Assembly: GCA_029262055.1 (NCBI GenBank)
Contig: JAJDAD010000010.1
Location: forward strand, 62,001 to 126,000
Direction of reading: 5' to 3'
Length of the DNA: 64,000 bases
Source: Candidatus Zhuqueibacterota bacterium
GTDB lineage: Bacteria; Zhuqueibacterota; Zhuqueibacteria; Oceanimicrobiales; Oceanimicrobiaceae
This document shows, in pieces, positions 11,676-29,382 of the stretch. The position numbers were made by a program, and so were the translations under genes. The notes beneath the pieces are model-generated. The model did not search any database. It was not told the origin of the DNA and saw only the letters and a program-made list of their open reading frames with translations. The first letter of the stretch is position 1, and every line of letters starts with the position of its first letter.

Positions 11676-13109
11676 ATGCTGTTTAATTCAAACGAATTCC
11701 TGCTATTTTTCCCCACCGTTTTTGCAGTGTACTGGTTTTTCTTTAACCGGAACTTGAGGCTTCAAAACGGATTTCTTGTGCTCGCCAGCTATGTATTCTA
11801 TGGCTGGTGGGACTATCGATTCCTTTCCCTCATTCTTATCAGCACGGTGGTCGACTATCTCGTCGGCCTGAGAATTGAAGACAGCACCGGGACAAACCGA
11901 AGGCGGGCCTGGCTCTGGCTAAGCATCGGCGTGAATATCGGCATGCTAGGCGTTTTCAAATACTATGGTTTCTTCATTCAATCCTGGATTGACGCCTGGT
12001 CAGTGATAGGATATGAGATGCCTCGTTACTCTTTGCAGATCATTTTGCCGGTTGGCATTTCCTTTTACACGTTTCAGACGCTTTCATATTCGATAGATAT
12101 CTATAATCGTAAATTGAGGGCGACAAAGGATTTTATCAGTTTCGCTGCGTTTGTGTCATTTTTCCCGCAACTGGTCGCCGGACCTATCGAAAGAGCCAAG
12201 AACTTACTGCCGCAAATCCTGAAACGGCGGGCGTTCAAATACGAACAGGGCGTGCAGGGCTTGCGATTGGTTCTGTGGGGCATGTTCAAGAAAATCGTGA
12301 TTGCTGACTCGCTGGGTCGTTATGTCGACGACATTTTCACAAACTATTCACACTATGATGGTGGCGTGCTGGTTCTTGGGGCGATTTATTTTTCATTTCA
12401 AATCTATTGTGATTTTAGTGGCTACTCCGATGTGGCCATAGGTTTAGCGAAGCTGCTTGGCTTCGACCTGATGACGAATTTCAGATTCCCCTATTTTTCA
12501 AGGGACATCGCTGAGTTTTGGAGACGCTGGCACATTTCCTTGTCCACGTGGTTTCGGGATTACGTCTACATTCCCCTCGGCGGCTCCAGGGTGGGCAAAG
12601 CACGGTCAATAAGAAATATATTTGTGGTATTTGTGGTCAGTGGATTTTGGCATGGCGCCAACTGGACCTTCCTTGTCTGGGGCTTCATTCATGCTTGCCT
12701 CTTTTTGCCGTTGTTTCTTCTCGGGAGCAATCGCAAGAAGAGAGAAGAATTACATGAGAATGGCCGCTTGCTGCCATTGTTGAAGAAAACAGGTCAAATC
12801 GGTCTTACCTTTGGTTTTGTTACGGTCGCATGGGTGTTTTTTCGCAACGAGAGTGTCACATCAGCTCTATCCTATTTAAGTTCCATGAATATCGTCTATC
12901 CCGCATCGCACCGACTCTATATTATCTATGTTGTTCTATTTGTGATCTGTGATTGGGGGGTGATGAATTCTATGTCTTGTACGCCGAAAAGAACTGCACC
13001 ATACGTGTCAAACCTGTTCTTCCGGAATGCTGTTTACTCAATTCTCGTGTTGTTGATTCTCCTGCACGTGCCGAATCAGGCCGCTAACTTTATCTATTTT
13101 CAGTTCTGA
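11676..13109 (+). CDS. MBOAT-family O-acyltransferase (AlgI/DltB-like)
   Basis: The protein has 477 aa and about ten or more membrane helices. It carries the family landmarks: FPQLVAGPIERAKNLLPQ, then FWRRWHISLSTWFRDYVYIPLGG with His286, and SGFWHGANWTFLVWG with the putative catalytic His326. These are the standard AlgI/PatA motifs for moving an acyl group across the membrane onto a polysaccharide. The next gene, 2 nt downstream, encodes an SGNH-type partner, matching AlgI-AlgJ/AlgX, DltB-DltD and PatA-PatB pairs. The role is therefore probably O-acetylation of the exported glycan. Confidence 0.92.
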   Translation: MLFNSNEFLLFFPTVFAVYWFFFNRNLRLQNGFLVLASYVFYGWWDYRFLSLILISTVVDYLVGLRIEDSTGTNRRRAWLWLSIGVNIGMLGVFKYYGFFIQSWIDAWSVIGYEMPRYSLQIILPVGISFYTFQTLSYSIDIYNRKLRATKDFISFAAFVSFFPQLVAGPIERAKNLLPQILKRRAFKYEQGVQGLRLVLWGMFKKIVIADSLGRYVDDIFTNYSHYDGGVLVLGAIYFSFQIYCDFSGYSDVAIGLAKLLGFDLMTNFRFPYFSRDIAEFWRRWHISLSTWFRDYVYIPLGGSRVGKARSIRNIFVVFVVSGFWHGANWTFLVWGFIHACLFLPLFLLGSNRKKREELHENGRLLPLLKKTGQIGLTFGFVTVAWVFFRNESVTSALSYLSSMNIVYPASHRLYIIYVVLFVICDWGVMNSMSCTPKRTAPYVSNLFFRNAVYSILVLLILLHVPNQAANFIYFQF

Positions 13110-13111
13110 TT

Positions 13112-14032
13112 ATGAAATGCTTTTTTCGGAGATTCTCTCTCTTCATCTTGCAATTTCTGGCTATTTGCTGTGCACTGGAGCTGCTATTGTCTATGAACTA
13201 TAGCAAGGCTGCACACAATTTTGAAGACTGGCATCGTCTGGAAAACATAGACGCCGAAGTCATTTTCGTTGGCAATTCCAGAACATGGGTACACTTCGAC
13301 CCTATGCACTTCGAGAAGGTAACCGGCCTGTCTAGCTACTGCCTGGCTGAGGACGGCTACGGCATACCTCTGCTGTATGGCAAGGTCGTGAAATATCTGG
13401 AATCCAATAATCCTCCGCGATATTTGATTCTGCAAGTTGATCCAAGCATGGTCCGAAGACGGGAAAACATCTACAACAAAGATACTTTCTTGAAATACAT
13501 TTTCCTCGACCGAGAATCAATAAACAGCTACCTGAGCGGCTACAACGGTTTTTCCAGGTTGGAAGTCTTCACCCCACTTCTGCGGTACAAAGGTTACTTT
13601 GATGTCTTTCTAAAACATCTGTTAGGGATTGAAAAGTACAATCGAGTGCGTGGGTTTAACAATACGAAAGAAGTTTGGGGTGGAGAAGAATTACGCGAAG
13701 ATCGGACGTGGGACTATGATTCCAGGGAGTATGGATACATTGATAGGATAAGGAAGCTGTGTGAAAGCAAGGGGATAATACTCAAGTCGCATTTTCCTCC
13801 GTTGACGAAGGAGCTTTACGAGAGCATCGCCGGCAAAGACGATATCGAAAGCTATCTGGCGAGAATTGGTGTCGAGTACATTGACTGGAACAAGTTGATG
13901 GACAGGAACACCTTTTCAAAGAGGTACTTTCACAATCATCTGCACTTGAACAGTCACGGCGTTCAAAAAATGAACGATCTCATTGACAAGCACATTGGCT
14001 TGATCATTGAGCATGCCGTGGCAAAATCATGA
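13112..14032 (+). CDS. SGNH-like membrane-anchored protein, partner of the MBOAT acyltransferase
   Basis: An N-terminal hydrophobic helix (about residues 7-28) anchors a 306-aa extracytoplasmic protein. VIFVGNSRTWVHFDP contains the candidate nucleophile Ser56, in the position of the GDS-like block of DltD, AlgJ and PatB proteins. A C-terminal block (FHNHLHLNSHG) holds His278 where the catalytic His is expected, but the residue three positions before it is Asn275 rather than the usual Asp. Its start lies 2 nt after the MBOAT stop, so they form a two-gene unit. The function (acyl transfer from the MBOAT product to sugar) is inferred from position plus weak motifs. Confidence 0.6.
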   Translation: MKCFFRRFSLFILQFLAICCALELLLSMNYSKAAHNFEDWHRLENIDAEVIFVGNSRTWVHFDPMHFEKVTGLSSYCLAEDGYGIPLLYGKVVKYLESNNPPRYLILQVDPSMVRRRENIYNKDTFLKYIFLDRESINSYLSGYNGFSRLEVFTPLLRYKGYFDVFLKHLLGIEKYNRVRGFNNTKEVWGGEELREDRTWDYDSREYGYIDRIRKLCESKGIILKSHFPPLTKELYESIAGKDDIESYLARIGVEYIDWNKLMDRNTFSKRYFHNHLHLNSHGVQKMNDLIDKHIGLIIEHAVAKS

Positions 14033-14096: not shown

Positions 14097-15341
14097 GTGA
14101 AGCTAGGGTTTCATTATCATATCCCCGCAATTAAGATGGATGGACAGATTCGTACCACCGCGCAGCAAGGACTTTTTATGGACGGGTTGGCCGACCACTG
14201 CGACGAGCTGGTCTGCTTCCTGCACAGCCCGAGGAAGGAAGAGTTGCAGTCGATGGAGTATGTGATCGAGAGCAAGAAAGTAAAGCTCGTGAATATCGGC
14301 ATCCACGCCAGGGTGTATGTCCGGCTGCTGCTGCAATCCTATTTTGTCAGAGAGTTCAAGCGAGGACGTAAAAATCTGGATGCTCTGCTGATACGGCAGC
14401 CGTCGCCCCTGTTTCCCTTCTTCGCAAAACTGTCGAGCCAATTGCCGTTGATCTTGCTGATCGTCGGTGATGCGGTGGAGGAAGTAAAAGCGAGTCAGTT
14501 GGCGTGGTGGCGGAAAAGCATAATTCAGGCATATTATAAGTATAGTCTTCGCCAACTCGAAAAGAGCGCAAGCCGATCGCTGGTGTTAGTAAATAACAAA
14601 AGCAGCGAGCTGCAATGGCGAAACAAAGCGCAGTCTCTAAAAAGAATAACCACCACAACAGTCAAGGCCGATGATTTGTATTATCGAACTGATACCTGCA
14701 AACGCTTCCCTATTAGGCTTCTGTTTGTGGGCAGACTTGATCGACAAAAGGGCCTCAGTGACATTGCACAAGCCACGATCAAGCTCAATCGGAAAGGGAT
14801 GGATGTCAGGCTTCATATTGTAGGTCACGCGACCACAAACGACCCTGTTTTGGATGAAGTCAAAGAGATATTTTCACGCCACAGCATGATTCACAAGTTA
14901 GAACACCATGGGTATCTATCGCTAGGCCCGGATTTGTATCATATTTATAGAAAGGCGGACATTTTCATTACCGCTTCAATTGCCTCAGAGGGTTTCCCGC
15001 GTACAATATGGGAAGCCTTCTCCCAATCTCTTCCAGTGGTTGCCACCAAGATAGGCGGAATCCCGTTGTTGTTGGCGGATAGAACCCATGCGATGTTATG
15101 CGCGCCAAGAAATCCGGATCAGCTCGCCGATGCAGTGCAGGAAATCATTGGTGACCAGGAACTTCGCCGGAAATTGATAAGAAACGGGCATGACCTGGTC
15201 AGCAAGAACACATTGGAGAAGACTGCTGAAACCACAATGGAGTATATAAAATGCTGGATTGATCCTCAAAGAGTTGGGGCGCAGGAAAACGGCAAGGCTA
15301 CGATGCCAAACAAGCCAGAATTGTGCAATCTTCAAGAATAG
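14097..15341 (+). CDS. GT4-family glycosyltransferase
   Basis: This is a GT-B glycosyltransferase of 414 aa starting at GTG 14097. The donor domain begins at IRLLFVGRLDRQKGLSDI, followed by HHGYLSLGPDLYHIYRKADIF, SEGFPRTIWEAF and ATKIGGIPLLL. The same motif spacing and wording occur in the GT4 protein at 9185, so the two are paralogues within the locus. The last 30 residues are polar and variable. The gene end overlaps the GTG start of the carbamoyltransferase fusion by 19 nt, which suggests coupled translation. Acceptor and donor sugars are unknown. Confidence 0.88.
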   Translation: MKLGFHYHIPAIKMDGQIRTTAQQGLFMDGLADHCDELVCFLHSPRKEELQSMEYVIESKKVKLVNIGIHARVYVRLLLQSYFVREFKRGRKNLDALLIRQPSPLFPFFAKLSSQLPLILLIVGDAVEEVKASQLAWWRKSIIQAYYKYSLRQLEKSASRSLVLVNNKSSELQWRNKAQSLKRITTTTVKADDLYYRTDTCKRFPIRLLFVGRLDRQKGLSDIAQATIKLNRKGMDVRLHIVGHATTNDPVLDEVKEIFSRHSMIHKLEHHGYLSLGPDLYHIYRKADIFITASIASEGFPRTIWEAFSQSLPVVATKIGGIPLLLADRTHAMLCAPRNPDQLADAVQEIIGDQELRRKLIRNGHDLVSKNTLEKTAETTMEYIKCWIDPQRVGAQENGKATMPNKPELCNLQE

Positions 15342-18300
15342 GTGAATCATTGAAAACACACCGTCAGATATTTTGCTATAATGAGAAAATTGGCCATCTT
15401 TTTGTCCCCAATCTCAATGCCCGGGTCATGAACGAGAACGGCGGCTACTATGTCCGGACTAATTCTATGGGCTTCCGCTCGGATACGGAATTTGAGACAA
15501 AGAAGACCGGCAAGCCGAGAATTCTATTCTTTGGCGATTCGAATACCGCTGCTGATGGTGTCAGCAATAGCGAGCGATTTTCAGACCTGGTAGGGAAACA
15601 TTTCGATGCTGAGGTCTATAATTTCGGCCTTTCCGGCTCCGGCACCGATCAGCAGTATCTCGTTTGGCGTGAGTTTGCGCAGGATATTGAAGCAGATTTA
15701 GTTGTGGTCGGTGTTCTGGTGGAGAACATTGAGCGCAACAAAGTGGCTTACCGGGAAACGCTCAATCCGTTCACCCGGGAACGCGTTTTGACCCCGAAGC
15801 CTTACTTCAAGCTGCAGGACGGAAAGTTGAAGCTCAGTAACTTTCCGGTGCCCCGAGTCAATGGCAACAGTACAGGGATCAAGCCTGAGATGGTACAATG
15901 GGAGATACCAAGAGGCCAGGAGGCGCTGTACAAACTGCATGACGGCTTCCGAAAAAGCAAGTTGCTGGGGTCCATTCGAAGCAGTCTCGGCCCTCAGTTG
16001 GTACGCCTGCGTTCGCTTCTTATTAAGATGGCATATCAGCCGCATCCGGACTATCAGGAAACCGGCAGCGACGGATACTCCATCATGAAGGAAATCCTGA
16101 CAGAGTTTGTTGACTCGCTGGCTCCGGTCCCGGTCATGGTTATGCCGATACCGACCTACCACTACTACGCGGACGGCGCAAAGCCTGTATTCAAGCAATT
16201 CTTCCAGAATTTCGAGGACCCGGGTAAACAGGTCCATGTGGCAAATCTCCCCGATGATTTGAACAAACTGGAGTACGATAAACGGCGGGAATTATGTTTC
16301 CGGGAAGACAAGTCACATTTTTCCCAACGTGGGCACCAAATAATATCCAGGTTCCTGATTGACGAGATAGAGAAACACGGGATATTGTCACACCAGAGCA
16401 GTAGCTACCGCGTAGCAGAAAGCAACGGAAAAGCAGAGAAACCGCTCTACATTCTGGGCATTTCCGCCTTTTACCATGATTCGGCCGCGGCTTTGATCAA
16501 GGACGGAGAAATCGTTGCGGCGGCTCAGGAGGAAAGGTTCAGCCGGGTGAAAAATGATCGCCGCTTTCCGTTGTCGGCAATTAACTTTTGCTTGGAAAGG
16601 GGCAACATCCAACAAGATGATCTGAGTGCAATCGTCTACTACGACAAGACTTCACTTACGCTCGAGCGCCTGCTCTGGACCTTTTCAAAAACAGCTCCCG
16701 CCAGTGAAAACGCCTGGAAATCAAGCCTGCCATCATGGGTCAAGTACAAACTCTTCCTGCCACGACTGATCAGAAAAAAACTAAAGTACAGCGGTAAGAT
16801 CCTGCAGGATTTTCACCATCGCTCACATTGCGCTGCTGCCTTCTATCCATCGCCTTTTAGGAAAGCTGCCATTCTAACAGTGGATGGCGTTGGCGAGTGG
16901 GCGACTGCCAGCATCGCGCTTGGGGACGAAAACAAGGTGACGATGCTGAAAGAGATGCTCTTCCCAAATTCTCTGGGACTGATTTATTCGGCATTTACCC
17001 AGTTTACCGGCTTTAAGGTAAACTCGGGCGAATATAAAATGATGGGGCTTGCACCGTACGGTAGCCCGATTTACGTCGACACCATTCTGGAAAACCTGGT
17101 GGACCTGAAGGACGACGGGTCGATCGATGTGAATCAGGAATACTTTAGCTACATGGATGGGTCCGTGATGACCAATGAGCGATTTGCGGAACTGTTTGGT
17201 GGCCCGGCGCGCCTGCCCGAGACAAAGATCTCCAAACGCGAAATGGACATCGCCTGTTCTATTCAAAAGGTGACGGAGGAAGTTATTTTACGCATGGCCC
17301 GTCACGCCCGGGAATTGACCGGGGCAGAGTATCTTTGCATGGCAGGTGGCGTGGCTCTGAATTGCGTGGCTAACGGCCGTTTACTCAAAGAGAACATCTT
17401 CAAAGATGTCTGGATCCAACCCGCAGCGGGTGACGCCGGCTCAGCGCTGGGCGCGGCCCTCGATGCCCACTACATGTACTTTGAGAAGCGCCGGATGCTG
17501 CCGGATGACGGCAGGCCACTGCAGCGCGGATCGTACTGGGGGCCCGAATGGAATAACGATGAGATTAAGTCCTTCCTCGACACCGAGAACATAAAATACC
17601 GTGAGATACAGGACAAGAACCGGGACGCCATTATCGCCGGGCTCCTGGATGAGGGGAAGGTGGTCGGGCACTATTCAGGCCGGACGGAGTTTGGCCCACG
17701 GGCTCTTGGCGCCCGTTCCATCATCGGAGACGCCCGTAGCCAGGAGATGCAAACCACCATCAACCTGAAGATTAAATACCGTGAGTCGTTTCGTCCCTTC
17801 GCTCCGACTGTCCTTGCTGATCGCGTAGACGAGTATTTCGAGTTAGACAAGGAAAGTCCGTACATGTTGTTTGTTGCCCCGGTACGCGAGGATCGCAGGT
17901 TGCCTTTTGAACGCGGCACCACCGACGAAATGCTTGAGATTGTGCGCCAGCCCCGCAGCGATGTCCCGGCCATAACACATGTGGATTATTCAGCGCGTGT
18001 CCAGACCATCGATAAGGAAGATCACGGAAACTACTATAACCTCATCAGAGCTTTCCAGGAATCTACCGGGTACGGGATAATCGTCAACACCTCCTTCAAC
18101 GTCCGTGGCGAGCCGATAGTCAATTCACCGATGGACGCCTACCGGTGTTTCATGAATACAGAAATGGATGTTTTGGTGCTCGAGAACTGCATGTTGTTTA
18201 AGGAAGAGCAGGAGAAAATGAAGACGGCTCCGAAGGAGACCGCCGAGAGCCAGCCGGGAACAAACGCCAACAAAGATGAAGCCCTGGAGAAGAGCCTGAG

Positions 18301-18622
18301 TAGCCTGTACCAAAAGAAAGTTCTACCTGCTTCCGGGGAACTAGGAAATGAGGTTCCTGGCGAAAGCGGTAGTTGTTCCCGTTGGATTGACTGCGTGGGG
18401 CAAAATGAGCCGGACAGCATATTTGATATTTCAGACGACCTTGACCATCCAAAGCCTGATCCTGATAAAATGGCGGGAACCATAACCCGTGGCTGGTACA
18501 ACCGGCGGTTTGCAGACATCTTCGAACCGGTCGTTGTCAGGCTGATCTCCCTAGGCAGCCAATATCCGTTGGAAGAGGATATGACTGGTAGTGTTTCCAG
18601 CAAAATGTACGAAATGTTTTGA
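15323..18622 (+). CDS. SGNH hydrolase-like domain fused to NodU/CmcH carbamoyltransferase, with an extra C-terminal domain
   Basis: This is a three-part protein of 1099 aa. Residues about 60-360 are SGNH/GDSL-like: FFGDSNTAADG with Ser73, the glycine block NFGLSGSG, an Asn in VLVENIERN, and the Asp329-x-x-His332 pair in EDKSHFSQRG. Residues about 373-960 are a complete NodU/TobZ-type carbamoyltransferase: YILGISAFYHDSAAALI, EERFSR, VDGVGEWATAS, FGPRALGARSI and the C-terminal NTSFNVRGEPIV. Such enzymes transfer the carbamoyl group of carbamoyl phosphate through carbamoyl-AMP to a sugar hydroxyl. Residues about 960-1099 are not recognised. No signal peptide is seen, so it acts in the cytoplasm. 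The GTG start overlaps the GT4 gene; a TTG at 15350 with an AGGTGA box is an alternative start. The fusion suggests linked deacylation or acyl handling and carbamoylation of one glycan residue. Confidence 0.85.
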   Translation: MQSSRIGESLKTHRQIFCYNEKIGHLFVPNLNARVMNENGGYYVRTNSMGFRSDTEFETKKTGKPRILFFGDSNTAADGVSNSERFSDLVGKHFDAEVYNFGLSGSGTDQQYLVWREFAQDIEADLVVVGVLVENIERNKVAYRETLNPFTRERVLTPKPYFKLQDGKLKLSNFPVPRVNGNSTGIKPEMVQWEIPRGQEALYKLHDGFRKSKLLGSIRSSLGPQLVRLRSLLIKMAYQPHPDYQETGSDGYSIMKEILTEFVDSLAPVPVMVMPIPTYHYYADGAKPVFKQFFQNFEDPGKQVHVANLPDDLNKLEYDKRRELCFREDKSHFSQRGHQIISRFLIDEIEKHGILSHQSSSYRVAESNGKAEKPLYILGISAFYHDSAAALIKDGEIVAAAQEERFSRVKNDRRFPLSAINFCLERGNIQQDDLSAIVYYDKTSLTLERLLWTFSKTAPASENAWKSSLPSWVKYKLFLPRLIRKKLKYSGKILQDFHHRSHCAAAFYPSPFRKAAILTVDGVGEWATASIALGDENKVTMLKEMLFPNSLGLIYSAFTQFTGFKVNSGEYKMMGLAPYGSPIYVDTILENLVDLKDDGSIDVNQEYFSYMDGSVMTNERFAELFGGPARLPETKISKREMDIACSIQKVTEEVILRMARHARELTGAEYLCMAGGVALNCVANGRLLKENIFKDVWIQPAAGDAGSALGAALDAHYMYFEKRRMLPDDGRPLQRGSYWGPEWNNDEIKSFLDTENIKYREIQDKNRDAIIAGLLDEGKVVGHYSGRTEFGPRALGARSIIGDARSQEMQTTINLKIKYRESFRPFAPTVLADRVDEYFELDKESPYMLFVAPVREDRRLPFERGTTDEMLEIVRQPRSDVPAITHVDYSARVQTIDKEDHGNYYNLIRAFQESTGYGIIVNTSFNVRGEPIVNSPMDAYRCFMNTEMDVLVLENCMLFKEEQEKMKTAPKETAESQPGTNANKDEALEKSLSSLYQKKVLPASGELGNEVPGESGSCSRWIDCVGQNEPDSIFDISDDLDHPKPDPDKMAGTITRGWYNRRFADIFEPVVVRLISLGSQYPLEEDMTGSVSSKMYEMF

Positions 18623-18668
18623 GCAGACCGCATGATTCTAATTGTCATCATATACTGAAGAGCATAGA

Positions 18669-20168
18669 ATGCCGGAAGTCATAATCTACGAGGACGCTGA
18701 TTTACAATATCCGGAATCAGCACCTTTTTCAGCTTCAACCGAATACCCTGAGTTTGCGTCACTGAGCCATAGTCTGGCGCCGGTGACCAATGAAGTCTAT
18801 GCCGCGGTTCGCAATACGCTAGCCGTCCTGGGCCTGGATCGTGAGAACTTTGGCACTGACAAATGGAATCCACTTGGGAAATACATACCACCCGGCGGCA
18901 GCGTCTTAATCAAGCCGAACCTGGTTCACCACAGCACCTATCATGTCGCTGATAAAGAAGTCGTCCTGACCAATGGCAGTGTAATCCGTGCCATGGTGGA
19001 CTATGCGGTGTTGGCCTGTGGCTTGAACGGCAAGGTGACCATTGGCGATTCCCCCATGATGCCCGCCGATTTTGACAAAATCGTTGACAGCTTAGGACTT
19101 AACAAGATCGTCGAGTACTACAAAGAGCATTTTGACTTTACCATTTGTCTTGAGGACTTTCGTTTGATCCGCGGAATTTATAGCGAGACCGGATACCTGG
19201 AGAAAGTGATCAACGTAGAAGCAAACAACCATACAGATATTAAGTTGCGCAATACGCTTCACAGTCACTTTGAATCAAACTTTGAAGTTACAGACAGCGC
19301 AAACCCGGCAAAGACCTACACGTTGCACAACGCGATCCTAACGGCGGATTGCGTCATAAATATTCCCAAGCTCAAGACTCATAAAATAGCCGGCATGACT
19401 TGCTGTTTGAAGGCGTTCATCGGTGCCAGCTCCAACAAGAACCAGATTCTGCCTCACTACAGAAAAGGTGGCAGTGACACTGGTGGCGACGAGTATGAGA
19501 AAGAGACTATGCTGATGAAGTTGAAGCGCCACGTATTAGCGAGGCTGAAGAAAGGGCCCAGAATCATTTTTGATATTTGTCAGATATTGTTCGCCAAATA
19601 CCGGGATGTCGCTCTGAAGACAGGCTTTGGCAAAGACTTATACGGAAGTATGATCGAGCATGGCGCATGGCCCGGAAATAATACCCTGTGGCGTTCCATG
19701 TTGGATCTAAACAGGTGTGTCATGTTTGGAACCACCGACGGCACGGTGTCGGAGCAAAAACAGAGAAGTGTTTTCTCTTTGGTTGATGGGATTGTGGCCG
19801 GAGAAGGCCAGGGACCTTTTAATCCGCAAAAGAAGAGAGCGGGCGTGTTAGTAGCGGGGGACAATTCGCTCGCCAATGACCTGGTATGTACACGCCTCAT
19901 GGGTTTTAATTGGAAAAAGATGAACACGTTCCGGAAGATATTGCAGGAGGGTTTCTATGCAGAAGATGTCGAAGACTTTCAATCTTCCATAGATTTGATC
20001 GTCCGGGGTCGTTCGACGCGTGACGACTCTCCGCTGAGAAGCATGTTCGAGCACACAGATCCTCTTTTCAACTTTCAACCGCCTGTCGGATGGGATGACG
20101 TTAGAATCACGAGTGCATCGCCGGAACGAAACGGCAGGCTGCAACCGGAATTGTCTGAAGCACAATGA
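18669..20168 (+). CDS. DUF362-domain protein
   Basis: The 499-aa protein (ATG 18669 with GAAGAG 7 nt upstream) carries the DUF362 pattern. It includes GGSVLIKPNLV near residue 80, VTIGDSP, CVINIPKLKTHKIAGMTCCLK and, near the end, a VDGIVAGEGQGP segment with VAGDNSLANDLV. The family is large and mostly uncharacterised; some members are fused to ferredoxins, but I see no CxxCxxC cluster here. It sits between the carbamoyltransferase fusion and an asparagine-synthetase-like gene, whose ATG overlaps its stop in an ATGA. That coupling suggests the two act on the same substrate. The biochemical role is unknown. Confidence 0.8.
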   Translation: MPEVIIYEDADLQYPESAPFSASTEYPEFASLSHSLAPVTNEVYAAVRNTLAVLGLDRENFGTDKWNPLGKYIPPGGSVLIKPNLVHHSTYHVADKEVVLTNGSVIRAMVDYAVLACGLNGKVTIGDSPMMPADFDKIVDSLGLNKIVEYYKEHFDFTICLEDFRLIRGIYSETGYLEKVINVEANNHTDIKLRNTLHSHFESNFEVTDSANPAKTYTLHNAILTADCVINIPKLKTHKIAGMTCCLKAFIGASSNKNQILPHYRKGGSDTGGDEYEKETMLMKLKRHVLARLKKGPRIIFDICQILFAKYRDVALKTGFGKDLYGSMIEHGAWPGNNTLWRSMLDLNRCVMFGTTDGTVSEQKQRSVFSLVDGIVAGEGQGPFNPQKKRAGVLVAGDNSLANDLVCTRLMGFNWKKMNTFRKILQEGFYAEDVEDFQSSIDLIVRGRSTRDDSPLRSMFEHTDPLFNFQPPVGWDDVRITSASPERNGRLQPELSEAQ

Positions 20169-22072
20169 CGGGATTCTGCTTCTACATCGGGGATGACCAG
20201 TCCATCGTCGACAAGATGGAAAGATCCGCCAATGACATTTGGGGTTCCGTGGTAAAGAAATCATTTGACTCCTTTTCCCTGTTGATGGCTGAGCGTGGTG
20301 TCAATGCTTCATATGGTGAAAGCGATAATTCAGTTGGCGCGGTTGCCGGATACGTGCGATACGACAATATCGAGTACCCAGAAAATGGTAAACACTGTGC
20401 CCCCTTTTACCACAACCGAAGATTCTTATCCGAGGTCCGGGATGAGAAGAGATGGCCGCTTGGAGACAATGTGACCGGATGTTTCTCTGCGGTCTCTTAC
20501 TCAAAGCTCGAAAAGGAAGTCGCATTATGCAACGACATCATCGGTTATATCCCGTTGTACTATCGATACTGTGAGTCAGGTTTGTTGGGTGGCACAAGTC
20601 TGGTTGTCCTGGGAAAGGCGCTAGGCGCTGAGATCGATGTCACGGGTGTCTTACAACGAATATCTGCCGGCGGGCACTATTCAAATCTTGGCGACCGAAC
20701 AATTCTAAAGCGCAACAAGAGATTGTTACCCGGCGAGTATATGAAGTTTGCAGTGCCGGGCAGAAAGACCTCAAGGAGATTTGATAACACTCTTTACAGC
20801 GATCTCCAGGGTGGTACCACTGAGGGTTTTGCAGAGGAGACCTATTCCCAGCTGAACCATGAGATAGACTTGGCCACAAGCGGAATAGATAAGCTGTCGA
20901 TTGCTTTGAGCGGAGGATGGGATTCCAGAATACTTCTTGCCGCATTGTCAGAGAGGAAAGGGGACCTGAGCTGCCACACGATGGGAGCATCTGATTTATA
21001 TGAATCCAGGCTCGCAAAGCAGTGTGCTGATTACATGGGTTGTCCAATCGAGTTTTACCCATTGGAGAATCGTTTTTTCCCGCAAGGCGAACTTTGGAAG
21101 AAAATTGTCAGCAAAACCGAATCAGCTGGATTTCTACACTGGACTCCTCTTATTGAACCGAACATCGATGCACCTGAGACAGTCGATGAATATCTCGTGA
21201 TTGGTGGGGTCGCTGACAGCCTTGACGGCAGAAATATCTTGCGATACTCTTCACGGATGGCCAGGAAAAAACACTTCATGCGCAATCTGTTCATACCAAA
21301 CGCGAAGTTCAGCGTCATTGGCCCATCTCAATTTCAAGATTGGAAAGAAGAACTAAAAGCACGCGTAATCGCTGACATATGCCATAACCGGAATAAGCTT
21401 GCGGGCGCGTTGCTTGACGAATGTGATGTTGAAACTGTCAAAGAAGAAACACTGTGCGACCTGGAATTGGGTTTCAAGCGCATTGCGGACCAAATGCCGC
21501 CTTATGTGGAATTGCTCGATGAGATCTTTCGGTGGTTCCATTACACAAGATATTTCATGGGGAGCCAATTGTTGCAAGCAGGTGCAATAAGCAACGTCCT
21601 GGTCCCTTCGATGTCGCTGCGTTTCATGAGATTCAGTTCTAACATTGATCCCGCCATAAAACTGCGAAGGGGTCTCTTGAATGCAATAGGTCGACAGTCT
21701 GGTTTTGGCAAGCTTGCAAAGATACCGACATCAACAATACCTCTCGTCTCCTGCTCAGCGCCGGTCATAGTCCAGGAAATGATATGGGCCGGCCGACATA
21801 GCATTGACAATTTTCTCATCAGGAGAATGCTCAAATCAAAGACCGTACGCGATAATGAGCGATTACTGAAATCTTTTTCCTACGCGAAAGAATACGGTCG
21901 CTCCGACACCATATCTAATGTCTCCAATTGGTACTCAGGAAGATGGATAGATTTGAAGCCGTATCTGGACATTTTGAAGAAGAGGGCCGAATTATCCTTG
22001 TGGCCCTCCGTGAACACGGATATTGCTGTACCTGCAAACATCAGTAGCATCCTGGATCTAATTCATAATTAA
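20165..22072 (+). CDS. Asparagine-synthetase-like ATP-dependent amide ligase, no nucleophilic Cys2
   Basis: The 635-aa protein has the two-domain layout of class B asparagine synthetases. The PP-loop ATP motif is intact at residues 249-255 (SGGWDSR), followed by the expected helix and strand (HTMGASDLYESRLAKQ). The N-terminal glutaminase-like domain starts MTGFCFYIG, so Cys2 is absent and glutamine hydrolysis is not expected. The same loss is known in beta-lactam synthetase and in lasso-peptide cyclases, which activate a carboxylate and couple it to an amine. The start ATG overlaps the DUF362 stop. It could attach an amino acid or amine to a uronic acid or acyl group on the glycan. The substrate is unknown. 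Confidence 0.75.
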   Translation: MTGFCFYIGDDQSIVDKMERSANDIWGSVVKKSFDSFSLLMAERGVNASYGESDNSVGAVAGYVRYDNIEYPENGKHCAPFYHNRRFLSEVRDEKRWPLGDNVTGCFSAVSYSKLEKEVALCNDIIGYIPLYYRYCESGLLGGTSLVVLGKALGAEIDVTGVLQRISAGGHYSNLGDRTILKRNKRLLPGEYMKFAVPGRKTSRRFDNTLYSDLQGGTTEGFAEETYSQLNHEIDLATSGIDKLSIALSGGWDSRILLAALSERKGDLSCHTMGASDLYESRLAKQCADYMGCPIEFYPLENRFFPQGELWKKIVSKTESAGFLHWTPLIEPNIDAPETVDEYLVIGGVADSLDGRNILRYSSRMARKKHFMRNLFIPNAKFSVIGPSQFQDWKEELKARVIADICHNRNKLAGALLDECDVETVKEETLCDLELGFKRIADQMPPYVELLDEIFRWFHYTRYFMGSQLLQAGAISNVLVPSMSLRFMRFSSNIDPAIKLRRGLLNAIGRQSGFGKLAKIPTSTIPLVSCSAPVIVQEMIWAGRHSIDNFLIRRMLKSKTVRDNERLLKSFSYAKEYGRSDTISNVSNWYSGRWIDLKPYLDILKKRAELSLWPSVNTDIAVPANISSILDLIHN

Positions 22073-22096
22073 GCTCCCCTTCTTCGCCAGCACGCT

Positions 22097-23881
22097 GTGA
22101 ATCCACAAAAGAGACTACGGATTGCAATCCTCGCCCCATTACCGCCACTGGTCGGTGGAATGGCGCAACTTGCCGAGGCTTTGTCAATGAGATTTGAAAG
22201 GGATGGTCATACGGTTTTTCGCGTACAGATGGGCTCGCGAGCTGCCGGCATCTTCCCTTTCCCATCTCTTTATTTTCGCTTTCTTTGGACAATTCCACGC
22301 TGTAGCATGATTCATATTATTTCCGCCAGTAGCAATGCCCTGTGGCTCAAGGATTTGCCGGCTATCGTGCTGGCCCGTATTTTTGGCAAAAAGGCTGTTC
22401 TGAATTTTGTAGGCGGAATGGCAGTTGATACGGCCCGAAAGTGGGGTTGGTGGAAACGTCTGCCCTTTTGCCTGGCCAATACCGTTGTCGTCCCCACGAG
22501 CATATTCAAGAAAGTCCTGAACGACACTGGAATCAGTTCTGATGTTGTTGTTATTCCCCACACGGTAGGGGTAGAGTCGTTCAAAGCAGATGGTAAGGCT
22601 ACAACGAACGGGCCGCCTGTTCTATTAGCCGCTAAGGCTTTGGAGTCGTACGCGGGATTCGACCTGTTATTGGATGTTTTTGAGAAGGTCAAAAAGAAGG
22701 TAAGGGAAGCAGAGCTGTGGATTGCCGGTACCGGTCCTGCTGAGGGTGATTTGAAGCTCAGGGTTGGTCAAATGAAGACGGAGGGCATAAAATTCCTTGG
22801 CAATGTTTGTCATGATGATATGGCACGTATAATGGCAGAGTCTAGGGTATTTGTACATGGCACTCAATATGAAAGCTTTGGAATCGTTTTAGTCGAAGCA
22901 ATGGCTTCAGGACTGCCGGTGGTGGCTTTCAAAATCGGCGGCATCCCCGAGGTCGTGCTTGATGACCGGACCGGTTGCCTGGTTGACTATGGCGATACGG
23001 ACGCTTTCGCCGATAGAATTGTGAATCTACTGGGTGACCATCACAAATATAGCGAAATGTCCAGGCATGGAGTGAGACATAGTGCATCATTTGATTGGAG
23101 AAACATAAGTCGTAAGTGGTATGATCTTTTTGATGTTTTACTGGGCAATCGTCGACAGAAGTTGCCTGAACGCAAACCCGGGGTACCAGAGTTGGAAGTT
23201 GAAACCGCACATATCGACGATATTCGGGCAATTGATGTCTGTCGTCGAATTGTATTCCCTGATTCAATAGTTACATCTTTGAGCAGGCGATTCTCTGAGA
23301 AAGTACTGATGATGTTCACAGGTGTCGAAGACAACTTCCTCTTTGTTGTTCGGGAGGATCAGCAATGTGTTGGTTATTGTGCCGGAACGCTGGACACCAT
23401 TCAAACGACTGGCTTGGGTTCTACCTCATCCATGGTTCAGTATGCCTTTTGGGAGGCCGTCTTGTGTTTGGCAACTCGGCCCTGGCTGCTCTTTGACCGC
23501 AGAATAGGGGGGCAATGGCGTTTCATGGTACGCAAAATATCGGAGAGAACACGGAAGTTGTTTCGTGGCAATTATTACGAAGTAGATAGCCAATCTACCG
23601 AGATGGAGACCGCCTGGATCGTCGATATCGGCGTCCACCCGGACTATCGCGGACGTGGGATTGGGTCCAAACTACTCTTTCAGTTTGATGAGCATGTGAA
23701 AACTCTCGGGTTATTCAAAGCCGGTCTCAGTGTGGAAAAGGCGAATACCGCCGCAATCAGAGTCTATGAAAAGCACGGCTGGGAGGTCGCCAAAACACAT
23801 GATACTTCCTACTACATGACAAAAGATTATGGCAGACGAGAAGAAAAACCTGAACTACAGGCCTCGACACAGGCATGCTGA
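22097..23881 (+). CDS. GT4 glycosyltransferase fused to GNAT N-acetyltransferase
   Basis: Residues 1 to about 355 form a GT-B transferase: IAILAPLPPLVGGMAQLAEAL at the start, then the donor side with LWIAGTGPAEGDL, FLGNVCHDDM, YESFGIVLVEAMASGLP and FKIGGIPEVV. After a linker of about 30 residues, a GNAT domain covers about residues 375-580. The acetyl-CoA loop is HPDYRGRGIGSKLL and is followed by KANTAAIRVYEKHGW. This is a clean in-frame fusion; the GTG at 22097 is the only reasonable start. The GNAT part may acetylate an amino sugar, perhaps the one that the GT4 part transfers, giving linked N-acetylation and transfer. No TM segments are apparent. Confidence 0.85.
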   Translation: MNPQKRLRIAILAPLPPLVGGMAQLAEALSMRFERDGHTVFRVQMGSRAAGIFPFPSLYFRFLWTIPRCSMIHIISASSNALWLKDLPAIVLARIFGKKAVLNFVGGMAVDTARKWGWWKRLPFCLANTVVVPTSIFKKVLNDTGISSDVVVIPHTVGVESFKADGKATTNGPPVLLAAKALESYAGFDLLLDVFEKVKKKVREAELWIAGTGPAEGDLKLRVGQMKTEGIKFLGNVCHDDMARIMAESRVFVHGTQYESFGIVLVEAMASGLPVVAFKIGGIPEVVLDDRTGCLVDYGDTDAFADRIVNLLGDHHKYSEMSRHGVRHSASFDWRNISRKWYDLFDVLLGNRRQKLPERKPGVPELEVETAHIDDIRAIDVCRRIVFPDSIVTSLSRRFSEKVLMMFTGVEDNFLFVVREDQQCVGYCAGTLDTIQTTGLGSTSSMVQYAFWEAVLCLATRPWLLFDRRIGGQWRFMVRKISERTRKLFRGNYYEVDSQSTEMETAWIVDIGVHPDYRGRGIGSKLLFQFDEHVKTLGLFKAGLSVEKANTAAIRVYEKHGWEVAKTHDTSYYMTKDYGRREEKPELQASTQAC

Positions 23882-23923
23882 ACCCGGCCTGGGCAGCCTT
23901 GAACCCTAACTGATTTGAATTAA

Positions 23924-25240
23924 TTGAAGACGCTTTTTGAGCATTACATAGGTTTGTTGGGTTATCGACTCACCCAGCCTGAGAAGGAAATCGAACGGAT
24001 CCAGTCACTGTCTCCGGGAGATTATCGCAAGTGGCGTGACGAGCAGAGGTGGCAGATCGCTCGTTATCACTATGAGCATAATGCATTCTACCGGAGAAAA
24101 GTAGGGAAGCACTTTCCGGAAAGATGGGAAGATCTGCCGGTCCTGGAGAAATCGGATTATCAGGATAATATAGAGAAGCTGCTGTCAGCGGGCTATGACC
24201 GCAAGAATACTTACATTTCCAACACCTCAGGATCCTCAGGACATCCTTTCTTCTTTGCCAAAAACAAAGAATCCCATGCGATGGACTGGGCAATGATCAA
24301 AAGGCTCTATGGCTTGCATGGACTTAAGCTGAATGCAAAGCAGGCCCGCTTTTATGGTATCCCGCTGGAAAAGTGGGCATACCGGCGCGAGAAGGTCAAG
24401 GACCTGGTTATGAACCGGGTTCGCTTCCCCGTATTTGATCTGTCCGATGAAGTATTGGCACAGTTTGTAGATAAGTTCAGGCGGACAAAATTCGAACTTA
24501 TCTATGGCTACACGAACTCACAAGTCTTGTTCGCCCGCTATCTGATCAAGCAGGGTATCGTATTGAAAGACGTCTGTCCGTCACTGCTGAAATGCATCTC
24601 GACTTCGGAAGTGCTGACACCGGAAGACCGCAACGCGCTCTCCGACGGCTTTGGCGTCGACGTGATAAACGAGTACGGCGTCTCGGAAGTTGGAGGTATT
24701 GTCGCCTTTGAACGACATGATTCCAGGTGGGTTCTATCCCATGAGACCCAGTTTGTTGAGGTCTTGAATGAAGAAAACAGGCCCCTGCCAGCCGGGCAGA
24801 AGGGGAACATCTGCATCACGGATCTGGACAATCTTGCCATGCCATTTATCCGGTATAATGTCGGAGACATCGGCGTTATTTGCGTAGACGGGAATGAATC
24901 TTCCAACCAGTGTCTCCAAAGCCTGCTGGGCCGGACAAATGATAATGTCACACTGCCGAGCGGCAAGGTCTCACCCGGCCTGACCTTCTACTACGTTTCC
25001 AGATCGATATTGGAGTCGTCCGGTGTGCTGAAAGAGTTCATCATTCGCCAGACTGCTCTGGACTCTTTTGTATTCGATGTGGTCACCGAACGCGATCTTT
25101 ACGAGAGTGAGGTCAAGGAGATTGAAAGCAAAATGGATTTGTACCTGGAGCCGGGGCTAAATCTCAGTATCAACAAGGTTCCTTTTATCGAGCGGCCGGA
25201 ATCAGGCAAGATTAGGCACTTTTATTCGGAGATTGCATGA
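23924..25240 (+). CDS. CapK/PaaK-like adenylate-forming enzyme
   Basis: The protein has 438 aa, matching phenylacetate-CoA ligase-related CapK proteins of capsule clusters. Adenylation motifs are SNTSGSSGHPFFF (about residues 98-110), INEYGVSEVGGIVAF, the FIRYNVGDIG segment and a short C-terminal domain. Members activate a carboxylate as an acyl-adenylate, and CapK-type genes recur in polysaccharide loci without an assigned substrate. The start is a TTG (23924). The stop overlaps the next GT2 gene by ATGA, so it is translated with it. Together with the asparagine-synthetase-like gene two positions upstream it suggests acyl or aminoacyl decoration of the glycan. That is inference. Confidence 0.82.
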   Translation: MKTLFEHYIGLLGYRLTQPEKEIERIQSLSPGDYRKWRDEQRWQIARYHYEHNAFYRRKVGKHFPERWEDLPVLEKSDYQDNIEKLLSAGYDRKNTYISNTSGSSGHPFFFAKNKESHAMDWAMIKRLYGLHGLKLNAKQARFYGIPLEKWAYRREKVKDLVMNRVRFPVFDLSDEVLAQFVDKFRRTKFELIYGYTNSQVLFARYLIKQGIVLKDVCPSLLKCISTSEVLTPEDRNALSDGFGVDVINEYGVSEVGGIVAFERHDSRWVLSHETQFVEVLNEENRPLPAGQKGNICITDLDNLAMPFIRYNVGDIGVICVDGNESSNQCLQSLLGRTNDNVTLPSGKVSPGLTFYYVSRSILESSGVLKEFIIRQTALDSFVFDVVTERDLYESEVKEIESKMDLYLEPGLNLSINKVPFIERPESGKIRHFYSEIA

Positions 25241-26247
25241 GCGTCAGCCGGCCAAGCGTCACCATCATCATGCCTGTCCGCAATGAAGGGGCGTATATTG
25301 AGGACACCTTGCGCTCCGTACTGGAGCAGGATTATCCGCAAGATAGCGTTGAACTCCTCATTGTTGACGGTATGTCGGGCGATAACACCAGAGACATCAT
25401 TCACTCAACCATGAAGACACCGTCGGATGCACGCAGGAAGCCGATAAAATACAAGGTACTGGATAATGAAGCCGGAATCGTCCCAAACGCTTTGAATATT
25501 GGCCTGGCGCAAGCAGAGGGTGATATCATCATTCGCGTAGACGGTCATTGCCAGATTCCCGGAGACTATGTAAGCAAGTGCGTTACCTTGCTTGAAGAAA
25601 CCGGGGCCGACAATGTCGGAGGAACACAATGCGCGATAGGAAACGGCGCTGTTAGTGAAGCTATCGCGGCGGCCAACGCTTCGCCCTTTGGGGTAGGCAA
25701 TTCACGCTTTCATTATTCAAAAGAACCCGCCTGGGTCGACACCGTATTCCTGGGCGCCTATCGTCGCGAAGTATTCAGCCGGGTTGGTGGTTTCGATGAA
25801 GATTTGGTGCGGAACCAGGACGACGAATTCAATTTCCGGTTGCTTCAGGCAAATGGTCAAATCTGGTTTGACCCTTCTCTTCGCGTGAAATACTTCTGCC
25901 GTTCGAGCTTTCGGAAATTGTGGCGGCAGTATTTTCAATATGGTTTCTACAAGGTCCGGGTTATGCAAAAGCGCAAAGGAATGGCCTCTGCGCGCCACAT
26001 CGTACCTGCGACTTTCGTCCTGGCCTTGCTGGCTACACATTCCGTTGGAATACTCAGTCAGAGCGCCATCGTTTTCTTCCTGGTCTCCATGCCTTATTTT
26101 CTCGCCACAATCTTCGCAAGCGTATCAACGGCCGGCCGGAGTCTGCGTTTGTTGCCCCTCTTACCTGTAGTGTTTTTCATTCTGCACTTTTCCTATGGCG
26201 CCGGGTTCCTGTGGGGTCTGTGGAAATGGCGAAAATATTGGTCCTGA
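25237..26247 (+). CDS. GT2 glycosyltransferase, ExoA-like
   Basis: GT-A motifs are VTIIMPVRNEGAYIEDTLRSV at the N-terminus, the loop VDGMSGDNT, the metal-binding RVDGHC in place of a simple DxD, and NQDDEFNFRLLQANG. The last is the ED-type catalytic segment typical of ExoA (succinoglycan glucosyltransferase). Two or three hydrophobic helices at the C-terminus (residues about 255-330) anchor the enzyme. The length of 336 aa is normal for this group. ATGA overlap with the CapK-like gene indicates coupled translation. It probably adds one sugar to the lipid-linked repeat on the cytoplasmic side. Confidence 0.9.
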   Translation: MSVSRPSVTIIMPVRNEGAYIEDTLRSVLEQDYPQDSVELLIVDGMSGDNTRDIIHSTMKTPSDARRKPIKYKVLDNEAGIVPNALNIGLAQAEGDIIIRVDGHCQIPGDYVSKCVTLLEETGADNVGGTQCAIGNGAVSEAIAAANASPFGVGNSRFHYSKEPAWVDTVFLGAYRREVFSRVGGFDEDLVRNQDDEFNFRLLQANGQIWFDPSLRVKYFCRSSFRKLWRQYFQYGFYKVRVMQKRKGMASARHIVPATFVLALLATHSVGILSQSAIVFFLVSMPYFLATIFASVSTAGRSLRLLPLLPVVFFILHFSYGAGFLWGLWKWRKYWS

Positions 26248-26381
26248 GCAGGTCTGGCTTTGCCCTGCCGCACAGCAATGTCTACTTGCCGGGAATTCAC
26301 CGCCTGCTCTTTCAGCGCACTTCAAGAAGGCAAAAACGCTGGCATGCTGGCATTCACCGCACGACCCCTTAACAAAATACT

Positions 26382-26410
26382 TTGACATCATGAAGACGCC
26401 TTATTCCATT
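26382..26410 (+). promoter_or_regulatory. Possible sigma-70-type promoter before the methyltransferase gene
   Basis: A perfect TTGACA lies at 26382-26387. The hexamer 17 nt later (TCCATT) is a weak -10. It sits in the only gap of notable size (180 nt) inside the block from 14.1 to 27.7 kb. The rest of that gap shows no gene, only a short GCTGGCAT tandem. Confidence 0.3.
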
Positions 26411-26427
26411 TTACTAAGGTGACCATC

Positions 26428-27708
26428 ATGGCTGTTGGCACTTTGACAGACCTTGTCGCCGAGCAGCCGACAGCCCCAGCTGCACGGGGTTGCACTGAAG
26501 AGGACCGAATTTTCGGGTATGATGTGGAATTGCTCAAAGCGGTTGTGTCTGTCCTGCGCCGGCATGACTATGAGAAGTTTCAGTACATCCCCACAAGAGC
26601 GAACTGGCTCGCAGTTGCGAAGGAGCATGAAAATCTTCTCAACCTGTTTACGCGGGACAAACATCTGCTCTTTTACTACTCGTTGCTGCCCCGGCTTTAC
26701 CGGGACCTGATTTCGGGATTTAAGCGCGAAAGAGGCGTTCTGTTTCAAGCCTGTTTTTGCAACAAGGCTTATCCGGCCCGGGTACTGGAAAAGAGCTTTT
26801 CCAGGTCTCTCGTGCAGCGTCTTGTGGACAACCAGATATTGATTGAACGAGGGCAGGAACTGTTGTTTTCGCTCAGCTTCGTGCCTTTCGGCCAGCACAT
26901 TTTGATCCGCGACCCGTACGATACTTACCCACCCGTGAACCGGGAATTTGACAACCAGGTATGGATGGGTTCGGATTCGGTGATCTTCGCAAAGTTTCTC
27001 AAGCAGATCGGTAAAGAACGGGAATTCCGCAGGGCCCTGGAGATAGGATCCGGTAGTGGTTTGCAAAGTACTATTACAGCCGGTTTTTCCGGGCAGTGCC
27101 TGGCGGTGGACAACAACGAGCGTGCAGTACAGTGTACATCTATAAATGCGGCACTAAGTGGCTTGTCGAATCTGGACGTCTGCCACTCTGATTTGTTCTC
27201 CAACGTCAACGGGAAATTCGACCTGATTCTGGCCAACCCCTGGTTCATCGACCTCGAAAAAGGTGGCCTGGAAGAACTGCCAGGGATTGCTGAGGGCTTG
27301 AATGCCCATTTAACGGACGACGGCTGGTGCGTCATGATCATGGATTCCTATATGCAAAACGGGGTCGATACGACTTACAATTACTTACGTGATTTTGTCT
27401 CAGAACATGGCTTTGATGCGGAGTTGTTTACGATAGGGTACGGTCTTGACAGGGCGAATTATGATGACTTTGAGCGATATGGGATTGCATACAATATCCT
27501 GTATTATATCGTACTTAAGAACGGCGGGAGCGGCAGGCTGACGCGGTATTCCTGCTCACGCCTCAGAAAGCTCCGGGATTTTACCTACATCAGGGGGATA
27601 CGGGCATTTCACAGTCTCAGGGCGGCCTCTAACCGGCTGAGGGGATCAGTCACAGACCGCGTGGACAGACCAGACGGATTGCGCTCATCTAGTCATGTTG
27701 AGAGCTGA
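26428..27708 (+). CDS. SAM-dependent methyltransferase with NPW motif (HemK/PrmA-like core)
   Basis: An N-terminal region of about 190 residues without a clear family is followed by a Rossmann methyltransferase. Motif I is ALEIGSGSGLQSTITA, motif II is CLAVDNNERAVQ, and motif IV is DLILANPWF. NPxx motifs in this position belong to enzymes that methylate planar nitrogens (HemK, Dam-type) or related small-molecule enzymes. I prefer ATG 26428 because AAGGTGA lies 5 nt upstream; a GTG at 26419 is the alternative. The C-terminal 60 residues are basic. The gene closes the unusual modification block. The substrate may be an amide or amino group made by the neighbours, or unrelated. Confidence 0.7.
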   Translation: MAVGTLTDLVAEQPTAPAARGCTEEDRIFGYDVELLKAVVSVLRRHDYEKFQYIPTRANWLAVAKEHENLLNLFTRDKHLLFYYSLLPRLYRDLISGFKRERGVLFQACFCNKAYPARVLEKSFSRSLVQRLVDNQILIERGQELLFSLSFVPFGQHILIRDPYDTYPPVNREFDNQVWMGSDSVIFAKFLKQIGKEREFRRALEIGSGSGLQSTITAGFSGQCLAVDNNERAVQCTSINAALSGLSNLDVCHSDLFSNVNGKFDLILANPWFIDLEKGGLEELPGIAEGLNAHLTDDGWCVMIMDSYMQNGVDTTYNYLRDFVSEHGFDAELFTIGYGLDRANYDDFERYGIAYNILYYIVLKNGGSGRLTRYSCSRLRKLRDFTYIRGIRAFHSLRAASNRLRGSVTDRVDRPDGLRSSSHVES

Positions 27709-27816
27709 TGACTTCAGGCCGTGTTCAGGAGACACATGGGGCAAACCTGGGCGTATTTTCTTCCTTGCAGGCAGTTTTAAGTGGCCAATAACCGGAGGCT
27801 CGACAGAGTCGATCAA

Positions 27817-29382
27817 ATGAAGTGCCAATACACTGGTAAACGAACCATAATCACAGCTGCCATCGTGGTGCTCGTGCAGCTGAGCATACTACAACCCGTA
27901 GCCCTTGCCCAGGACATCCCCACTGAATTCTGGCCGGCATTGCACCTGGGGATTCTGCATGACTTCGGCCATGAGTGGGGGACGAACTCTGTCTTCAAGC
28001 CGTTTCGCTGGGAGAGGTTGTGGGGTAGTGCCAGCGATGGAGCAAGACTGTCAGAACGTCCGCTCTCCTGGTTGTGGGATGACCTGGTTAGAGAGACTGA
28101 GTCGAGCGGATTGCTGGTGCCGATTGTAAAGGACACCCTCAACGTGCGCTGGTGGAACGGGGCTACACTGCAGAGGCCGGTTGGCACTGGTGAGCCGTTC
28201 TCCGGACTTTCTACTGCCACCTACACCAACTTTAATATCTGGTTCCGGCAGAAACTGAATGTACAGTTCTATCTCAGGGCGACAAATGAACCTGGAAGTC
28301 TACCGCATTTTACCGGTCGGCCACGCGATATCAGCCGGTTGGGTTTTAATTCGGCTGAAATAGACCTGGCCTCCATCAGCTATGCCAACCATTGGATGAC
28401 AGTGCAGTTCGGACGCGGCCGGCAAATCTGGGGAGCGCTGGAAGGCGACAATCTCGCTTTGGGCTCAGGCAGCGCGTCGTACGAGCAGCTCATGTTTGAA
28501 GGCAGGTACAAACGGTTCCGAGGCCGTTTCTTTTACGCGTTTCTGGAATCGACTCTGCTAAACACCGACAATATCAATCGCTATCTGGTTGGCCACGGCC
28601 TGGAATATTCGAACCAAAAGAACCTGGTCGTCGGGCTGACGGAGATCATCACTTTTTCAGGAGTCAATCGACCGCTTGATCCGGCCTTCTTGAATCCGCT
28701 CTTGCCCCAGGTCGTTACGGAGCAGAATGAACGTACCAACCAGCAGCGTCTGAGCAACAGTGCGAACGCGGTTTGGACTTTATCGGTAGACTGGATGCCG
28801 CTGCCCGGGTTTCGTTTCTCCGGTAATTTCACCGTTGATGAGTTCCAATTGGATAGTGGGGACCGCGACCAGGGACGGCCCGATGCCACAGCTGTTCAGA
28901 TCCGGACTGCCTATTCCAGGTCCGTGGGGCTGGTTGGCGCCACCGCCTCCTTTGACTACACGCGCATAGGAACGTTTACTTTCAGTCATGGCACCGGGCA
29001 AAACAATTTTGTGTCGCGCGACCGGCCATTGGGTGCGGAAATTGGCAGCGATGCCGACCAGTGGCGATTTGGTCTCAGAGTGGTTTTGCCGCAACGGGTC
29101 ATTGCATCCGTCGGATTCGGTGGCCTGCGGGCCGGCGAGAGGAGCCTGTTGCTGAGTCCCTACCGTGGCTTCATTGCTGAGGAATTTCGCAGTGCGCCTT
29201 TTCCGAGCGATGCGGTACAAAACACTGATTTCTTTGACTGGATGGTCCGGTACTCGCCCATCCGCAATGTCGACCTTGCTGCTTCGGGTCGGTTTTCCAG
29301 CTCGGAGGGCCGGTTTGAGGCAGAACAGAGTTACGTGATTTTTTCGATCAATGCTTACTTGCCTTGGTGGTTTGGGCTTTAG
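27817..29382 (+). CDS. Wzi-like capsule assembly outer-membrane beta-barrel protein
   Basis: From ATG 27817 the protein has 521 aa and starts with a good signal peptide (KRTIITAAIVVLVQLSILQP, cleavage near ALAQ-D). The mature part is made of alternating hydrophobic/polar strands with many aromatic residues, and segments such as FGRGRQIWGALEGDNLALG match the Wzi/Cap_assemb_Wzi pattern (GRQ..WG). Wzi proteins bind exported capsule at the cell surface, which fits its place at the end of the polysaccharide genes. An open frame back to a GTG at 27781 would put charged residues before the signal peptide and is unlikely. Family assignment is from pattern and context. Confidence 0.65.
   Translation: MKCQYTGKRTIITAAIVVLVQLSILQPVALAQDIPTEFWPALHLGILHDFGHEWGTNSVFKPFRWERLWGSASDGARLSERPLSWLWDDLVRETESSGLLVPIVKDTLNVRWWNGATLQRPVGTGEPFSGLSTATYTNFNIWFRQKLNVQFYLRATNEPGSLPHFTGRPRDISRLGFNSAEIDLASISYANHWMTVQFGRGRQIWGALEGDNLALGSGSASYEQLMFEGRYKRFRGRFFYAFLESTLLNTDNINRYLVGHGLEYSNQKNLVVGLTEIITFSGVNRPLDPAFLNPLLPQVVTEQNERTNQQRLSNSANAVWTLSVDWMPLPGFRFSGNFTVDEFQLDSGDRDQGRPDATAVQIRTAYSRSVGLVGATASFDYTRIGTFTFSHGTGQNNFVSRDRPLGAEIGSDADQWRFGLRVVLPQRVIASVGFGGLRAGERSLLLSPYRGFIAEEFRSAPFPSDAVQNTDFFDWMVRYSPIRNVDLAASGRFSSSEGRFEAEQSYVIFSINAYLPWWFGL

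Follow-up and report, generated by a model that had tools for sequence, protein, structure and literature searches.

Gene content and setting of the locus

The stretch of DNA analyzed here (64,000 nucleotides, hereafter the window) lies on contig C104 of assembly G000 (5.7 Mb), and its positions 14097-27708 carry eight genes, every one on the plus strand and separated by small gaps. The preliminary description had placed these genes correctly, as the ORF coordinates and Pfam matches confirm, and had counted nine of them. The block opens with a GT4 glycosyltransferase (14097-15341) and an SGNH-NodU gene (15323-18622), which had been described as a GT4/carbamoyltransferase fusion and are really two ORFs in different frames with a 19-base overlap; the true fusion joins an N-terminal SGNH/GDSL domain to the NodU-type carbamoyltransferase (Pfam Carbam_trans_N 7.3e-91, Carbam_trans_C 1e-68). 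The 130-aa C-terminal tail of this protein (18230-18619) has no Pfam match. Next lies a long DUF362 gene (DUF362L; 18642-20168; 508 aa; Pfam DUF362 1e-28), the core of the module discussed below, whose product has a predicted LarA-like fold. As noted earlier, it shares 4 bases, visible in the sequence, with an AsnB-like synthetase gene (20165-22072) whose product lacks a glutaminase: the protein starts MTGF, so Cys2 is absent, and its PP-loop LSGGWDS is intact. The GT4-GNAT fusion of a glycosyltransferase and an acyltransferase (22097-23881), also recognized before, is upheld by Pfam (Glycos_transf_1 1.9e-33, Acetyltransf_1 3.3e-15). It is followed by a CapK/PaaK-like adenylate-forming ligase (23924-25240; NCBIfam DVU1553_fam 1.2e-18) and a GT2 glycosyltransferase (25237-26247), for which the coordinates confirm the reported 4-base overlap. 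The last gene (26419-27708) encodes a class I methyltransferase that matches MTS/HemK-type models in Pfam, and nothing points to the N- or O-methylation of a sugar that had been proposed. The genes of the block are real and mostly intact enzyme genes, and a chance feature is ruled out.

Upstream of the block, on the plus strand, are a Wzy/O-antigen-ligase-like polymerase (10182-11636; Wzy_C 5.3e-11), an MBOAT O-acyltransferase (11676-13109; MBOAT 6e-28) and a 306-aa protein ending at 14032, which has no significant Pfam match and may be SGNH/AlgJ-like; the latter two (11676-14032) are a probable O-acetylation pair of the polysaccharide locus. Because the block is flanked by the Wzy-type polymerase and MBOAT upstream, and by a sub-threshold match to a Wzi-like protein (27781-29382) and a DegT aminotransferase downstream, we conclude that the region is a Wzy-type surface-polysaccharide locus. 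The DegT/PglE-like aminotransferase at 29452-30792 is matched by Pfam in two separate stretches and has an apparent extra segment of ~50 residues (~170-217), which may have been inserted close to the catalytic lysine. On our reading, a single ORF at 30829-33480 joins an undecaprenyl-phosphate sugar transferase (PglC/WbaP-like) to a PglF-like dehydratase.

Recurrence of long DUF362 with CapK

A search of 147 genomes with the window DUF362 protein gave five good relatives (E < 1e-37) and one weaker, and a CapK-like ligase neighbours the long DUF362 gene in all five good relatives. Scanning GTDB contigs with the single window sequence returned nothing, and a subfamily profile detected 433 loci encoding long DUF362 relatives in GTDB genomes. 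With a profile built from 79 relatives, the window protein scored 414 bits, as compared with at most 107 bits for generic DUF362 proteins; judged by sequence, long DUF362 is a distinct subfamily of DUF362 (PF04015) and the window copy is a member. Of 290 genomes sampled, 168 carry a DUF362 gene of any kind, and the long form is patchy in the window's phylum (about five of 82 genomes). The window DUF362L forms a long branch (2.68 changes per site). A search of Clostridia for closer relatives yielded no more than the two copies in Schaedlerella and a single weak fragment.

For the locus analysis we took the best 80 of the 433 loci with flanks of up to 10 kb; these are labelled as ~20 phyla, nearly all being metagenome bins, of which some will carry wrong labels. 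Loci L081 (binned as Pseudomonadales) and L082 (Sedimentisphaerales) have identical DUF362L and matching neighbour genes, and therefore one of the two bins is probably contaminated. By six-frame searches of these best 80 loci, CapK was present within the locus in 76 and on the same strand in 74; it was adjacent (≤200 bp) on the same strand in 58 and convergent and adjacent in two. Three of the four loci without CapK end at most 2.2 kb downstream of DUF362. In the control comparison, CapK occurred within 1.5 kb in 66/80 long-subfamily loci and in 0/13 generic DUF362 loci. The divergence of DUF362L also tracks that of CapK (r = 0.71 over 47 non-redundant pairs, a value reached in 0 of 2000 permutations, with species history left in). 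Among the paired CapKs, the adenylation motifs including the C-terminal Lys429 are conserved in 73 of 74 sequences, the remaining one having a gap; the conserved columns are Gly103, Tyr251, Glu255, Asp315, and Lys429. The same motifs and C-terminal lysine are found in the PaaK/coenzyme F390 synthetase/CapK family, and the CapK profile matches PaaK crystal structures (7.7e-57), the solved relatives being phenylacetate-CoA ligases. The module CapK differs from this family in its constant DUF362L neighbour and falls far under the cut-offs of all named NCBIfam equivalogs. The case is strong that DUF362L and CapK are a recurring unit across genomes labelled as some 20 phyla. The unit seems new to the open literature searched, in which titles and abstracts on DUF362 give no polysaccharide-synthesis function and nothing relevant links CapK or phenylacetate-CoA ligase with polysaccharide.

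In the window, the CapK-like gene lies 3.8 kb downstream of DUF362L on the same strand, with the AsnB-like and GT4-GNAT genes intervening, and its catalytic motifs including the C-terminal lysine are intact. Since its score against the paired-CapK profile (184 bits) is below that of an unpaired CapK of genome G029 (330 bits), it may be a substitute, other than the usual partner of the module. The window copies are divergent and CapK is the weakest link; the widespread unit can be extended to the window with good support in the case of DUF362L and moderate support for the other genes.

AsnB directly follows DUF362 in five loci (L078, L086, L087, L099, and L110; gaps of 24-80 bp), and natural fusions join AsnB to CapK (L099 from Phycisphaerae, and L086), GT4 to DUF362 (L084), and DUF362, GT4 and CapK in a single 1447-codon ORF (L090). 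Pfam supports AsnB in L099 and both DUF362 and GT4 in L090, with the CapK part recognized by our own profile. The functions linked by these fusions are DUF362, AsnB, GT4, and CapK, which is the order of window positions 18642-25240. The AsnBs of the fusions keep Cys2, and the window AsnB-like protein, with no close relative among the 290 genomes, is too divergent to tie to them; its AF2 model (pLDDT 35.7) was left out of the analysis. The co-occurrence in distant genomes that the preliminary description had proposed as a check was found for long DUF362 with CapK and with AsnB, and in the fusions, but not for NodU/SGNH, GT2 or the methyltransferase.

Within the best 80 of the 433 loci, recurrent neighbours include the UDP-sugar 6-dehydrogenase family (20 loci), heparinase II/III (19 loci), an alcohol-dehydrogenase/GFO-IDH fusion (13 loci), Wzx, and Wzy. 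The isolate Schaedlerella arabinosiphila (L075) carries, in this order, a UDP-sugar dehydrogenase, heparinase, DUF362L, GT56, DegT aminotransferase, GNAT, and CapK, and its second DUF362L copy lies beside GT4s and what reads as a UDP-sugar dehydrogenase. Such neighbourhoods point to uronic acids and amino sugars. Exosortase genes (EpsH/EpsI) lie near DUF362L-CapK in several Planctomycetes, which suggests a role of the pair in exosortase-linked exopolysaccharides there. In the planctomycete loci L069, L074, L077, L080, and L084 the pair, often with heparinase, sits shortly upstream of EpsI/exosortase EpsH. The pair stands alone amid housekeeping genes in some members of the Bacteroidetes, Acidobacteria and other groups, and therefore a glycan role is not universal.

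The remaining genes of the block behave differently. NodU-type carbamoyltransferases are encoded in 73 of the 82 genomes of the phylum (E < 1e-40), mostly at ~55% identity, and none of fifteen NodU contexts contains DUF362 or CapK, the usual neighbour being a small membrane protein and sometimes an SGNH gene. NodU stands beside DUF362 only in the window and in L039 (genome G054, a candidate division KSB1 metagenome assembly of the same class as the window genome). Its near-universality and the contexts lacking the module rule out NodU as a module member; SGNH-NodU has a function of its own that is nearly universal in the phylum. The window protein shares Carbam_trans_N and Carbam_trans_C with NodU-type O-carbamoyltransferases and differs in its SGNH fusion and in missing the NodU equivalog cut-off (143.5 of 1000 bits). 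A second NodU of the window's genome (~55% identical; L167, G000:C19:33000-43000) is accompanied by a small membrane protein, a GT4 and an AsnB-like protein with an intact MCGI start, in what is a more conventional form of this kind of locus. The window GT2 and methyltransferase are likewise not recurrent partners in related loci, and, together with NodU-SGNH, serve other functions of the locus outside the module. The whole block can therefore not be kept as the single pathway that had been envisaged, and the idea of a single decoration that combines carbamoylation with amide formation is not borne out, given the NodU contexts without the module.

Predicted fold of DUF362L

DUF362 and DUF2088, the LarA superfamily, belong to one Pfam clan, CL0471 (PMC11770544). 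The AlphaFold2 model of DUF362L (73 sequences; pLDDT 85.8) was compared with the PDB by Foldseek, and the best matches were all LarA lactate racemases (E 3.5e-5, probability 1.00, global TM-score only 0.22-0.30); the predicted structure resembles the LarA fold. Matches obtained from the PDB by sequence alone, mainly designed TIM barrels, were judged spurious. The window motif H247-x3-G-x-T-x3-K257 has the spacing of LarA His174/Lys184, and both equivalents are invariant; a further invariant histidine (H272 in the window) is near the position of LarA His200 and is a probable counterpart. In LarA, Lys184 is the lysine carrying the nickel-pincer cofactor (NPN), and His200 is the nickel-ligand histidine. 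Unlike LarA, DUF362L has no counterpart of His108, which with His174 is stated in PMC12611868, and so does not show the two catalytic histidines of NPN enzymes. The profile alignment of DUF362L with LarA is weak (1.6% probability), so that the LarA match depends on the fold and on the spacing of the motif.

The need for NPN was tested via the presence of larC. Of 32 genomes with DUF362L, 24 have this gene, the window's own among them, and eight lack it; it is missing from G029 (98% complete), G015 (95%), and the single-chromosome MAG G313, all with DUF362L. Across the 290 genomes, 68 of the 168 with any DUF362 lack larC. The two genes are strongly associated outside the window's phylum (both 81, DUF362 only 23, larC only 26, neither 78; OR 10.6, phylogeny ignored) and inversely associated inside it (OR 0.12, phylogeny ignored). 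This association may be a sign that NPN plays a part in some DUF362 subfamilies. Because many DUF362 genomes, near-complete genomes with DUF362L among them, are without larC, NPN as a general requirement is not upheld. DUF362 is still without a known role, as originally remarked, but can now be placed in a fold family, LarA-like, and paired with a constant partner, CapK.

A candidate carboxylate decoration and its alternatives

We lean towards reading the window as a Wzy-type locus with a divergent copy of a widespread, undescribed DUF362L-CapK module, with the AsnB-like and GT4-GNAT genes in between, for a carboxylate-activating decoration. We infer its chemical steps and acceptor as follows. 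CapK should activate a carboxylic acid, because the adenylation motifs and C-terminal catalytic lysine are kept, and would spend ATP in doing so, the substrate perhaps being a uronic, hydroxy or amino acid. DUF362L presumably takes this acid, either free or already activated, and might isomerize it or aid its transfer. GT4 and GNAT would make the acceptor sugar and acylate it. The AsnB-like enzyme would form an amide from ammonia or an amine, with a source other than glutamine; AsnB-type proteins that lack Cys2 and retain the ATP loop resemble enzymes using an amine or free ammonia. The product would be a uronic-acid/amino-sugar repeat with acyl or amide decoration. More tentatively, DUF362L might represent a new enzyme class with a LarA fold, CapK as partner, and a His/Lys site without the nickel-pincer cofactor, a class that could modify the activated carboxylate of a uronic or hydroxy acid as part of a surface-glycan decoration, itself widespread and undescribed.

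A precedent for AsnB-type enzymes forming uronamides in polysaccharide loci is WbpS (PMC7468200). In the portion of that paper considered here, the Wbp/Vim linking-sugar pathway with its WbpS/WbqG amidotransferases likewise places an AsnB-type enzyme in a polysaccharide locus, for amino-sugar N-acylation, and VimA-related and AsnB genes also occur beside exosortase loci; the same portion, unlike the window, mentions neither DUF362 nor CapK. Against the WbpS family model TIGR03108 the window AsnB-like protein scores 27.5 bits (cut-off 816.9) and it has no Cys2, which sets it apart from glutamine-dependent AsnB.

Modular polysaccharide loci are the norm, and the eight genes could conceivably be shuffled, independent decoration genes of an ordinary O-antigen/exopolysaccharide locus, serving one polymer and containing no smaller functional unit. 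The near-universal occurrence of NodU independently of DUF362, the patchiness of long DUF362 and the divergence of the window CapK and AsnB-like proteins are in keeping with such shuffling, which we hold to be possible but doubtful; the DUF362L-CapK linkage, the fusions and the parallel divergence are unlike random shuffling, which applies to the rest of the block only. It is improbable that DUF362L is an NPN enzyme like LarA, epimerizing a 2-hydroxy acid or sugar acid that CapK activates afterwards. The fold match, the His174/Lys184 equivalents, the invariant histidine near His200, the frequency of larC among DUF362L genomes and its association with DUF362 outside the phylum all speak for such an enzyme; against it stand the three DUF362L genomes and the many DUF362 genomes without larC, the inverted association in the window's phylum, the missing His108 counterpart and the weak profile alignment.

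Synthesis of a glycosylated small molecule, instead of a polysaccharide decoration, appears very unlikely. AsnB-like proteins without Cys2 are known as macrolactam/beta-lactam-type cyclases, and the window protein has a weak NCBIfam match to the ikarugamycin/albusnodin cyclase subfamily (28.5 bits, where the cut-off is 300). However, reading the ORFs revealed neither a precursor peptide nor a PKS, an NRPS or a dedicated exporter, the block is flanked by Wzy, MBOAT and Wzi-like genes, and its relatives lie beside UDP-sugar dehydrogenases, Wzx and heparinases.

With the DUF362L-CapK module as the preferred reading, the surface polysaccharides of many uncultured phyla gain a probable carboxylate-based type of decoration. 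For DUF362, a large family that has no function assigned, the question becomes testable through a subfamily that has a fixed partner and natural fusions and that occurs, in two copies, in the culturable Schaedlerella arabinosiphila.
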